DNA of 64,000 nt from Pseudanabaena sp. PCC 6802 (GTDB lineage: Bacteria > Cyanobacteriota > Cyanobacteriia > Pseudanabaenales > Pseudanabaenaceae): assembly GCF_000332175.1 (NCBI RefSeq), contig NZ_KB235910.1, forward strand, positions 798,278 to 862,277, written 5' to 3'. A program made the position numbers and the translations under genes. The notes beneath the pieces are model-generated. The model was not told the DNA's origin. It was given only the letters and a program-made list of their open reading frames with translations, and made no database searches. This document shows positions 55,138 to 61,081 of the stretch, piece by piece; position 1 is the stretch's first letter; every line of letters begins with the position of its first letter.

Positions 55138-55185
55138 ACCATTCTCCTTGACACTATAGCAACCTAAATCGCAAAAGAAGCCATA

Positions 55186-55318
55186 TATAGCGGTTTTCAG
55201 ATGAAAACGAGAAGGGGGGTTGGGGGCGTTGCCCCCAAGAAGGGGAGGCAGGGCGGTCTTGGGGGTTCCCCGCTAGAGCCACTGCCGTGTTCCACCCCTT
55301 CACCCCGTTCGATCTGTC
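55186..55318. repeat. Family B palindromic repeat, copy 3, with 49-bp inserted module
   Basis: The left end TATAGCGGTTTTCAGATG and the hairpin GGGGGCGTTGCCCCC are intact. The right part continues CCACCCCTTCACCCCGTTC but the terminal CTATA is missing. A 49-bp module (55246-55294) fills the middle; its reverse complement matches 47286-47334 at 47 of 49 positions. Confidence 0.85.
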
Positions 55319-55393: not shown

Positions 55394-55909
55394 ATGCACG
55401 ATAAATCTGCCCCAACTTTCCCCAGGAATCTTATCCTTGCAGGATTATTGACTTTTGGGGCATCATTCTTTTACCCCTTTATCAATTCGCAGGGAGCAGC
55501 CCTTGCGCAGCGATCGCTGCTAGAGCCAGCTCCCACAAATGAGGCAAATAGCGATCGCACATGTCAAAGCATCCCATCTGCCAGCCCGTTTATCAGAACG
55601 GAGTTATTTTTTGGTTCGCTCAAGCCCAATGGTTCTGAAGTAAACGATCTGGAATTCCAGAAATTCATCAACAATGAAGTTACACCGCGCTTCCCAGATG
55701 GATTAACGATTCTATTCGGTCTAGGACAATTCAAGAACTCGCGAGGAACGATCGTCAAAGAGAATTCTCGACTGCTGGTATTACTCTATCCGATAGATCG
55801 CCAGGATGATAGCAGTCAAAAAATCGAACAAATTCGCAAGATTTACAAATGCAAATTCCAGCAGGAATCAGTACTGCGCTCCGACAATCGCTCCTGCGTC
55901 TCATTTTAG
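55394..55909 (+). CDS. Secreted DUF3574-family protein
   Basis: The 171-residue precursor has a signal peptide (about 1-36, ending AALAQ). The domain (RTELFFGSLKPNGSEV, FINNEVTPRFPDGLTILFG, QSLLVLLYPIDRQDD in outline, IRKIYKCKFQQESVLR) matches DUF3574, a family of unknown function found in exported bacterial proteins. I start at the ATG at 55394, since the signal peptide begins there. The last codons overlap the 3' end of the convergent Uma2 gene by four bases. Confidence 0.75.
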   Translation: MHDKSAPTFPRNLILAGLLTFGASFFYPFINSQGAALAQRSLLEPAPTNEANSDRTCQSIPSASPFIRTELFFGSLKPNGSEVNDLEFQKFINNEVTPRFPDGLTILFGLGQFKNSRGTIVKENSRLLVLLYPIDRQDDSSQKIEQIRKIYKCKFQQESVLRSDNRSCVSF

Positions 55910-56748
55910 AGAAGGCGATCGGGATCTTCACCCAAGGCCCGCAGTCTTGCCGCAAGGCGCTCTGCACGTTGTTGTTCGGCATCTGCACGCTGTTGTTCGG
56001 CATCTGCACGCTGTTGTTCGGCATCTGCGCGTTGCTGTGCCATACCTTGCCCCTCTGCACCCGTGGGAATAATCTGGCCATCGCGATCGCACCAGCGCAG
56101 CCATAACCTTGTCACTTCCTCTTCAAACTGCCCTTCCCATAGCGTCAGTCCCAGACCAATTCTCTCTAACTGGATGCATTGTCCCACTGTAGCAATGCCT
56201 TGAGGTGGAGTGAGTTCTGTATAGCCAATGGGAGAGATCTTCCACACGCGCAGCAGCGCTCCATTCATCTCATGTTTGCCTTGAATCTGTTGTAACGGAT
56301 CGAACACAACATAGTAAGGTACGCCAATTTGAGCGTAGATATCCTTCTTACAAGCGGTTTTACCTCTCTGCTGCGATTCCCTACTCAAAGTCAACTCATC
56401 ACCCTTGGCATTAGAGGCAATTTCAATGCATACTTCTGGAACCTTACCAAACTCCCATAAAAAATAAGAACGATTGCGTCGCTGAGACAGGTCTTCAGGG
56501 CGCTGCACGTTCAAGCTCAGAAGTACGTCTGGAACAATTGGCTCTCCCTTGAGCTTATAGAATAAACCTACATTGGCATCGGCAATAAATGGCAGCGGTA
56601 ATGCCTTAGAACTGTAAAGCGGCTCGACCAGCAACCGTTGCTGCTGTGCCGATTGGAAATTATCCACCGGGGTATCGTCCTCAATCACAAGATGGCTAAT
56701 GTCAAGCTCAGCGATCGTTTCTTCAGTGTCAAGAAGCTGGGAAGTCAT
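55906..56748 (-). CDS. Uma2-family putative endonuclease with heptad tail
   Basis: Uma2 (DUF820) proteins are PD-(D/E)XK nucleases that are very numerous in cyanobacteria and of unknown role. The 280-residue protein has PDVLLSLNVQRPEDLS, YFLWEFGKVPEVCIEIAS with the active-site E and KGDELT, and YAQIGVPYYVVFDP. The tail repeats the heptad DAEQQRA three times in exact 21-bp DNA repeats (about 55960-56035), then RLAARLRALGEDPD, as in many family members. Confidence 0.9.
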   Translation of the reverse strand: MTSQLLDTEETIAELDISHLVIEDDTPVDNFQSAQQQRLLVEPLYSSKALPLPFIADANVGLFYKLKGEPIVPDVLLSLNVQRPEDLSQRRNRSYFLWEFGKVPEVCIEIASNAKGDELTLSRESQQRGKTACKKDIYAQIGVPYYVVFDPLQQIQGKHEMNGALLRVWKISPIGYTELTPPQGIATVGQCIQLERIGLGLTLWEGQFEEEVTRLWLRWCDRDGQIIPTGAEGQGMAQQRADAEQQRADAEQQRADAEQQRAERLAARLRALGEDPDRLL

Positions 56749-56890
56749 AGGCTGCGCCAGAACAACGGATCGATATTATTATAGCTATACCCTTTGTATT
56801 GCAATAGCTCGTATTCCGAAATTACGGATGCATGGGGAGCGTGAGATCTTAAGCTCAGTATAATAAGAACATGTTTTTGAACTGTTTCGT

Positions 56891-57007
56891 GTGGCTAAGG
56901 ATCGCTTTCACCAAATTGTTAAAGTGAATTTGATTCACAACGGGCGGACTATTAGCCATGACCCGTTACAGATAAAAGTCGGTGGGGTCGAGATCGAAAA
57001 ATTATGA
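56891..57007 (+). pseudogene. xisH: N-terminal remnant of xisH
   Basis: From the GTG at 56891, 38 codons read VAKDRFHQIVKVNLIHNG then RTISHDPLQIKVGGVEIEKL and a TGA. This matches the N-terminus of XisH, an endonuclease-like protein needed for excision of the fdxN element in Anabaena, where family members start AKDxFHxxVKxALxxDGWTITHDP. The remaining catalytic part is absent. Its TGA overlaps the ATG of the next gene (ATGA). Either a deletion joined the two or this short peptide now serves as a translated leader. Confidence 0.75.
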
Positions 57008-58263
57008 CAAGAATACTAGCGCTTTTACTAAGCTTAAGCTTAGTTTTAGTCAGTTGTGGCAGCACTCCCAATGATGGCAAAACCCACATTACCCTATGGC
57101 AGGGTATTAACCCGCCGACTAATCGCGAGGTACTCCAGAAATTAGTCGATCGCTTTAATCGCAGTCAGAACGAAGTCTTTGTGGAATCTATCTACGCCGG
57201 ACAAAGCGACCAGCAAATTCCCAAGATTCTCTCCGCTGTAGTTGGTAATGCTGCCCCCGACTTACTTTGGTACACTCCTACACTCACAGGACGATTGGTG
57301 GAGTTGGATGCGATTCGTCCCCTGGACGATCTGTTGGCGAAATCTCCCCTGCGCGATCGCATCGATCCGGCAATGTTATCGACAATGCAATGGCGCAATC
57401 GCATCTGGTCAGTGCCTTTTGCTACCAATAATATCGGTATTTTCTATCGCCCCAGTTTATTTAAGGCAGCAGGCATTGAGAAATTACCTCAAAACTGGAC
57501 GGAACTGCGTCAGGTAGCTCGGAAACTCACGTTAGATCGAGATGGAGATGGACGTATCGACCAACGGGGCATATTTCTACCGCTGGGCAAAGGTGAGTTT
57601 ACAGTATTCATCTGGACTCCATTCCTTTGGAGTGCGGGAGGAGATCTTTTCAAAGGCGATCGGCCACAATTAGCAACGCCAGAAGCCCAGACCGCTTTGC
57701 AGTTATGGCAGGATCTAGTTCGCGATAACTCCGCCATGCTCTCCCAACCGGAGAGAGGTTATGAAGAGGATAATTTTGTCTCAGGCAAAGTAGCAATGCA
57801 AATTAGTGGTTCTTGGGCGTTACGGTTTATGAGTCAGAAGAAAATCGACTTCGATGTCATGCCGATTCCCCAGGATCGCTATCCTGCTACCACTATGGGG
57901 GGTGAAAATTTATTTCTATTGAAAAGCACGCCCGAACGAGAAGCCGCTGCTTGGAAATTCGCTGAATTTGTAATTGGAGAAGAGTTTCAAACAGAATGGG
58001 CGAGACAAACTGGATATTTGCCCATTAACTTAGATGCACAACGCAGTTCGGCGTATGCTGCCTACGTATCTCAGCAACCAGCAGTTGAGGTATTCCTTAA
58101 CCAAATGCGATCGGCTAAATCTCGCCCACTGTCGCCTGAATATCCGCGCATTTCTGAGAGTATTGGTCGAGCGATCGAGGCAACTTTATTACAAAAGAGA
58201 AGCCCTGCTGAAGCTCTAGCAGAAGCTCAGCGCAATTTGGATCTAGCTCTGGGCAAGCCCTAA
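57004..58263 (+). CDS. ABC transporter sugar-binding lipoprotein (family 1)
   Basis: The 419-residue lipoprotein (lipobox LVLVSCGST, Cys18) is a type 1 extracellular solute-binding protein: ITLWQGINPPTNREVLQKLV, DRFNRSQNEVFVE, APDLLWYTPTLTGRL, FVSGKVAMQISGSWAL, WKFAEFVIGEEFQTEW. Such proteins deliver sugars, glycerol phosphate or glucosylglycerol-type solutes. Permease and ATPase genes are not adjacent. The ATG lies inside the stop of the xisH remnant (ATGA). The stop is one base from the convergent gene. Confidence 0.9.
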   Translation: MTRILALLLSLSLVLVSCGSTPNDGKTHITLWQGINPPTNREVLQKLVDRFNRSQNEVFVESIYAGQSDQQIPKILSAVVGNAAPDLLWYTPTLTGRLVELDAIRPLDDLLAKSPLRDRIDPAMLSTMQWRNRIWSVPFATNNIGIFYRPSLFKAAGIEKLPQNWTELRQVARKLTLDRDGDGRIDQRGIFLPLGKGEFTVFIWTPFLWSAGGDLFKGDRPQLATPEAQTALQLWQDLVRDNSAMLSQPERGYEEDNFVSGKVAMQISGSWALRFMSQKKIDFDVMPIPQDRYPATTMGGENLFLLKSTPEREAAAWKFAEFVIGEEFQTEWARQTGYLPINLDAQRSSAYAAYVSQQPAVEVFLNQMRSAKSRPLSPEYPRISESIGRAIEATLLQKRSPAEALAEAQRNLDLALGKP

Positions 58264-58842
58264 TTATTTGCCCATCTTGCGCTTTAACCGTTCTAGCTCT
58301 TCGTCCATTTCCCAACGGCGAAACTGCTGTTCTAAGGGATCGTCTGTTCCCTGCGATGGGGTATGAAGATTTTCCCAGTTAAAAGAAGTACTGGCTCGCT
58401 CGCTCGCTTGAGATTGGGACTTAGTTTTAGCAGCTTCGGCGATCTTGGTACGAACTTCCTGCATCCTTGACTGGATCTGGCTTTGTAGATCGGCAGTTTG
58501 GCTAATGCGCTGCTTGATCAGCTCCATTTGTGCCCACACCTGGTTGCCTTGCTTTAATAATGCCGCTTCCCGTTCTTTGGCAGCACTGGCTAAGTCCTGG
58601 CGATTGGCATCGCTAGCTTTCTTGGCGCGTTCGTGCCAGATCCTGATATCGTCAGCGATCGCTAAAATCCGATCCTGTAACTGTTTTTCCTGCGTGCGAA
58701 AACTAGCAATTAGTTTTGCCACTTCTGACTCTTGCTGGGTCAGTTTTTCTTCTAAGATCTGCAACTCAATTTGAGGATTATTGCGAATATATTCCTCTAG
58801 CCGAGTCTCAAGAAAGCGTGAAATATCATCAAGGAGTCCCAT
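58264..58842 (-). CDS. Coiled-coil protein, TIGR04376-like, PspA-resembling
   Basis: The 192-residue protein starts MGLLDDISRFLETRLEEYIR and is helical to about residue 145, then has a linker and a final acidic-basic helix (EMDEELERLKRKMGK). This fits a cyanobacterial family catalogued as TIGR04376, recalled from memory. The MGLLDxISxFL start and heptads resemble PspA/Vipp1, including REAALLKQGN, but the AEDPEKIL motif is missing. It is directly downstream of the gene at 58843 (adjacent coordinates). Confidence 0.7.
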   Translation of the reverse strand: MGLLDDISRFLETRLEEYIRNNPQIELQILEEKLTQQESEVAKLIASFRTQEKQLQDRILAIADDIRIWHERAKKASDANRQDLASAAKEREAALLKQGNQVWAQMELIKQRISQTADLQSQIQSRMQEVRTKIAEAAKTKSQSQASERASTSFNWENLHTPSQGTDDPLEQQFRRWEMDEELERLKRKMGK

Positions 58843-60043: not shown

Positions 60044-60157
60044 TATAGCGTTTTTCAATTGAGAACAGGTTTTATTGACGGGGTGAAGGGGTTCCACCCC
60101 TTCTTGGGGGCGTTGCCCCCAAACCCCCTTCTCGTTTTCATCTGAAAACCGCTATAG
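60044..60157. repeat. Family B palindromic repeat, copy 4
   Basis: Complete unit from TATAGCGTTTTTCAATTG to TCTGAAAACCGCTATAG, with hairpins GGGGTTCCACCCC and GGGGGCGTTGCCCCC. The two ends form an inverted repeat. Confidence 0.9.
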
Positions 60158-60628: not shown

Positions 60629-61029
60629 TATAGCGTTTTTTAATCTCTGAGGGTTAAATTCCCCGTTGCTTGCAGCGTGATATAATTTGCTCGGTTTTAC
60701 AGCCCGCCGATTGAGAGTAAAAGTCAGGCTTTGTCGGGACCTCCAAAGTTCGGGAAGTGTTTTCAAGGTTTATGTCTTGGATCAATTTGTACCCAGGGAC
60801 TCTGGGGAATAGAAAATGCCTGTAGAGCCGTTCTGTCGGGGAGTGCGTCATGGGATGCTTCTAGATAAGTGGTGATGAGCCAGGAATACCCAATCGTGAG
60901 GTTGGGATGCCCCGTCCGCTTGCGGCGGGGAGGATGTCACTTGAGAACAGTATTGTCGGGGTGAAGGAGTGGAAGCCCTTCTTAGGGGGCAACGCCCCCC
61001 CTTCTCGTTTTCATCTGAAAGCCGCTATA
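60629..61029. repeat. Family B palindromic repeat, copy 5, split by an inserted element
   Basis: TATAGCGTTTTTT at 60629-60641 and CACTTGAGAACAG from 60939 join into the normal left end of a family B unit when about 300 bp between them is removed. The right part runs to CTGAAAGCCGCTATA. Confidence 0.75.
60641..60939 (+). mobile_element. IS200/IS605-like non-coding element (remnant or PATE)
   Basis: The right end has a hairpin CCCCG-T-CCG-CTTG-CGG-CGGGG (60910-60930) with one bulged T, then AGGATGTCA, the usual layout of IS200/IS605 right ends. Near the left end is a second hairpin CGTTG-CTTG-CAGCG (60664-60677) with the same CTTG loop. No tnpA or tnpB gene is present in 300 bp. It may be a deletion derivative or a palindrome-associated element moved by a transposase in trans. 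Confidence 0.65.
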
Positions 61030-61081
61030 TATAGCATTAGAGATCGAGCAATACTCGCAAGAACCAGAAGCACTAATTCGT

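Follow-up and report, generated by a model that had tools for sequence, protein, structure and literature searches.

In the stretch of Pseudanabaena sp. PCC 6802 DNA analysed here (64,000 nucleotides, referred to as the window), a short open reading frame that begins as an xisH gene ends on the start codon of an intact gene for a solute-binding lipoprotein of a transporter. We consider it likely that a deletion or rearrangement joined the degenerate 5' end of xisH to the transporter gene, with loss of the xisH remainder, of xisI and of what had originally stood upstream of the transporter gene. The open reading frame at 56891-57007 on the forward strand consists of 38 codons from GTG to TGA and encodes VAKDRFHQ...GGVEIEKL (full translation, VAKDRFHQIVKVNLIHNGRTISHDPLQIKVGGVEIEKL, followed by the stop). 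The Pfam XisH profile (PF08814) matched it with an E value of 1.7e-6, residues 2-35 being aligned with profile positions 3-36 of 134, and the score of 28.7 bits exceeds the curated cut-off of 25 bits. A search of the whole genome recovered the same XisH frame, and a sequence search of the PDB returned 2inb (E 5e-6) and 2okf (E 2e-4), both over the same 34 residues; the latter entry is entitled 'FdxN element excision controlling factor protein'. The original prediction had likened the 38 codons to the XisH N-terminus, and the database match on which this origin depended was found, with the homologous part confined to codons 1-36 (56891-56998, + strand). As judged from these alignments, the XisH origin of the remnant is certain. 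The full-length domain, with its 134 profile positions and its acidic and E-x-K region, is absent; because only positions 3-36 are left, the sequence is a pseudogene remnant and yields no XisH protein.

To locate the end of the homology, the closest xisH genes were sought across 291 genomes of the class. The nearest seven (L158-L164) showed 63-69% protein identity to the remnant over 35-36 residues and most of them have their GTG start codon in the same place; L158 and L159 are themselves broken further downstream. The alignment of the remnant with these seven genes is free of gaps through codon 36 (GGVEIE against GGVDME). Past this codon, most relatives run on as I/VDLGAE..., whereas the window sequence departs, and codons 37-38 (K, L) belong to the junction, outside the homology. 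On the basis of this subfamily alignment, the junction zone, from the end of xisH homology to the last bases before the lipoprotein ATG, was placed at 56999-57003 (+ strand). Directly after it, the remnant stop TGA (57005-57007) overlaps the lipoprotein ATG (57004-57006) in an ATGA at 57004-57007 (+ strand), the arrangement that had originally been described. Two shortened genes were observed elsewhere: L158 (genome G194) has an internal xisH deletion after the same codon 36 and retains xisI, and in L201 (genome G049) an xisH N-terminus, about 37 residues long, is joined to an xisI C-terminus.

The gene on the other side of the junction (57004-58263, + strand) encodes an extracellular solute-binding lipoprotein of 419 residues (Pfam SBP_bac_8, 7.8e-36; SBP_bac_1, 5.8e-34). 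The open reading frame is complete, and the signal peptide with the lipobox LVSCGS, judged by eye as MTRILALLLSLSLVLVSCGS, places the protein among the SBP_bac_8 lipoproteins. The closest curated names in NCBIfam were UgpB and MalE, each far under its cut-off. Orthologues are 49-69% identical, and residues conserved in the alignment are present. Since the N-terminus is complete and has the same form as in the orthologues, the coding sequence was left uncut; the gene nevertheless retains almost none of its original upstream region. In the nearest orthologues (68-69%), the upstream gene is unrelated and the neighbourhood differs from that of the window, where a divergent Uma2-family gene (55906-56748, - strand; Pfam Uma2, 1.1e-8) lies upstream of the remnant. 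This Uma2-family gene contains 21-base tandem repeats at 55961-56038 in its C-terminal coding part, read in the protein as repeats of EQQRADA. Downstream, a TIGR04376-family gene (58264-58842; E 4e-69, with weak PspA-like similarity) is convergent with the lipoprotein gene.

These features suggest the following course of events. An xisH-xisI cassette would have stood upstream of the lipoprotein gene or moved beside it. A deletion or other rearrangement, breaking xisH after codon 36 and rejoining about 5-8 bases short of the lipoprotein ATG, would have removed the xisH remainder, the whole of xisI and the upstream region of the transporter gene, so that the xisH 5' stub persists as a pseudogene. 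The transporter gene may then use the former xisH promoter, with translation coupled through the ATGA. The earlier proposal of a deletion that placed the transporter gene behind an xisH 5' end holds in that a deletion or rearrangement is the simplest reading; the intact xisH-xisI arrangement at this place, which it led one to expect in relatives, was not found among those compared. As none of these relatives is of the same genus, we infer the direction and the number of the events. An fdxN-type excision element would be marked by an xisF-type recombinase gene and by direct repeats on both sides of an interrupted gene; a repeat search of 55.1-61.1 kb revealed no such repeats around the stub. 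Pseudanabaenaceae are not known to form heterocysts, and programmed excision is therefore probably irrelevant at this locus. The region also contains what looks like a small mobile-element-like repeat, GCCATATATAGCGGTTTTCAGATGAAAACGAGAAGGGGGG and its relatives, at 55180-55248, 60073-60156 and 60951-61035, which are 82-97% alike and occur in both orientations.

Broken xisH genes are not confined to the window. Besides the stub, the genome (5.62 Mb, 6 contigs) contains four complete xisH-xisI pairs. Another two xisH genes are broken, L005 by an internal deletion and L006 by the loss of all but its C-terminal half, and an intact xisI follows both. No xisI was detected near 57 kb or downstream of the remnant, all seven xisI matches of the genome being on contig C5, and the window copy is the only xisH of this genome without xisI. 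One of the seven, L043, is a lone xisI C-terminus; it was considered as the other half of the window cassette and rejected, because it is closer to the xisI of L002 than to the xisI of the remnant's subfamily. In eight relatives, 16 of the 69 xisH-matching stretches (about a fifth) are partial. Since broken xisH is so frequent in these genomes, a stub as such is ordinary, and only its placement against the transporter gene is unusual. The abundance of truncated copies, together with an upstream neighbourhood unlike that of the closest transporter orthologues, would suit a different origin, in which a decayed xisH end arrived already truncated by transposition or recombination, with no deletion in place. 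This is rather unlikely, given that the stub borders showed no repeats of at least 25 bases in the repeat search and that no second copy of the stub or of the upstream region was found in the genome.

We also weighed whether the 38-codon peptide is a selected, functional leader that steers the transporter gene by translational coupling, as its ATGA overlap, its open frame and a pN/pS below 1 might suggest. The comparison covered 101 loci of other cyanobacteria that encode this lipoprotein (21 and 80; some share genomes, and some have short upstream flanks). At E 0.01, XisH gave zero matches upstream of the lipoprotein family; matches to the remnant were at chance level only. The original prediction had named conservation of the peptide ahead of this transporter as evidence against a fragment; with no trace of XisH in these loci, the remnant is not a conserved leader peptide, and a conserved upstream open reading frame was rejected. 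RNA structure over the leader is likewise ordinary, with nothing beyond chance (z -0.74). The sequence of the peptide points in the same direction. Three of its residues are absent from all 57 distinct XisH-family N-termini, and it carries Arg at a site where 56 of the 57 carry Trp; this loss of family residues, including a near-invariant Trp, fits a dead coding sequence. At columns conserved to at least 85%, the remnant departs at 2, which is within the range of 0-3 in intact genes. Pairwise pN/pS was 0.21-0.36 for the remnant paired with members of its subfamily and 0.03-0.20 for the other members paired with one another, over 35 codons, too few for a firm test. The ratio and the lost residues fit past constraint followed by drift, and a value below 1 would be explained by constraint inherited from the time as a working xisH. 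By themselves, the open frame and the low ratio would be compatible alike with remaining constraint or with a recent event. Taken together, a selected leader is improbable. An assembly error that merged two loci is scarcely credible, as the junction is embedded in an 882 kb contig, within a 6-contig assembly that is 99.7% complete, and the genome contains no other close copy of the region that could, as a repeat, have misled the assembler.

Because only about 5 bases separate the stub from the ATG, transcription of the transporter gene must start within or upstream of the stub. A TATAAT at 56859-56864 (+ strand), 32 bases before the remnant GTG, is a candidate -10 element for the promoter that xisH once had; it has no recognisable -35, and a consensus scan of the + strand found no complete sigma-70 promoter. 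It is plausible that the xisH promoter was captured and drives the transporter gene, and also plausible from the overlap that its translation is coupled through the ATGA. Such coupling would be the transporter ATG's only access to the xisH ribosome site, as that site stands ahead of the GTG at 56891.

As a side result, xisH and xisI matches were paired in 17 genomes, nine including that of the window and eight others mostly from different families. A broken or stop-carrying xisH beside an intact xisI occurred 17 times in the nine genomes and 14 times in the eight (31 in total), whereas an intact xisH with xisI broken or absent occurred once in each set (2 in total). Intact pairs numbered 51 and 50, and one further intact pair of the nine-genome set, with two tandem xisI, was scored as broken by the merging rule. 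Intact xisI without detectable xisH was counted 14 and 11 times. The asymmetry thus recurs in both sets; the counts are not independent events, since copies from a single genus have a common past, and some diverged partners may have escaped detection. A toxin-antitoxin-like dependence of XisH on XisI would account for the asymmetry, and so would an XisH that is merely useless without XisI. Pfam assigns XisH to the PD-(D/E)XK nuclease clan; among the 12 papers listed for XisH with antitoxins, none names XisH in its title or in the opening of its abstract. A tentative and rather unlikely synthesis would be that XisH-XisI is toxin-antitoxin-like (nuclease-inhibitor-like), that xisH is repeatedly inactivated while xisI is kept, and that here a dead xisH 5' end serves as promoter and coupled leader of a transporter gene. 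Taken alone, the window stub adds one to the decayed copies of an accessory gene that is present many times over, and may exemplify gene decay passing a promoter on to a neighbour. The asymmetry touches the open question of the role of XisH and XisI in cyanobacteria without heterocysts, and renders it testable.

Compared with the XisH family (PF08814; 2inb, 2okf), remnant codons 1-36 align without gaps to the N-terminus, and the GTG start is that of most members of the closest subfamily; however, the remnant is down to 36 of about 139 codons, lacks the D...E-x-K region (IDLGAE...VEIKSF) and has no partner xisI. The transporter gene resembles those for solute-binding lipoproteins of ABC sugar importers (SBP_bac_1/SBP_bac_8) in being complete and aligning over its whole length with its orthologues, but xisH sequence stands in place of its upstream region. 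A precedent for transcription of a host gene from an xisH promoter is the operon xisH-xisI-ORF15-ORF16-hoxW of Lyngbya majuscula CCAP 1446/4, with a transcript start mapped 33 bp ahead of the xisH start codon, from which hoxW is probably transcribed (PMC2674450). A host gene thus lies downstream of an xisH promoter in both cases, a putative one in the window; in L. majuscula both xisH and xisI exist and share a transcript with hoxW (PMC2674450), whereas here the stub directly abuts the host gene.
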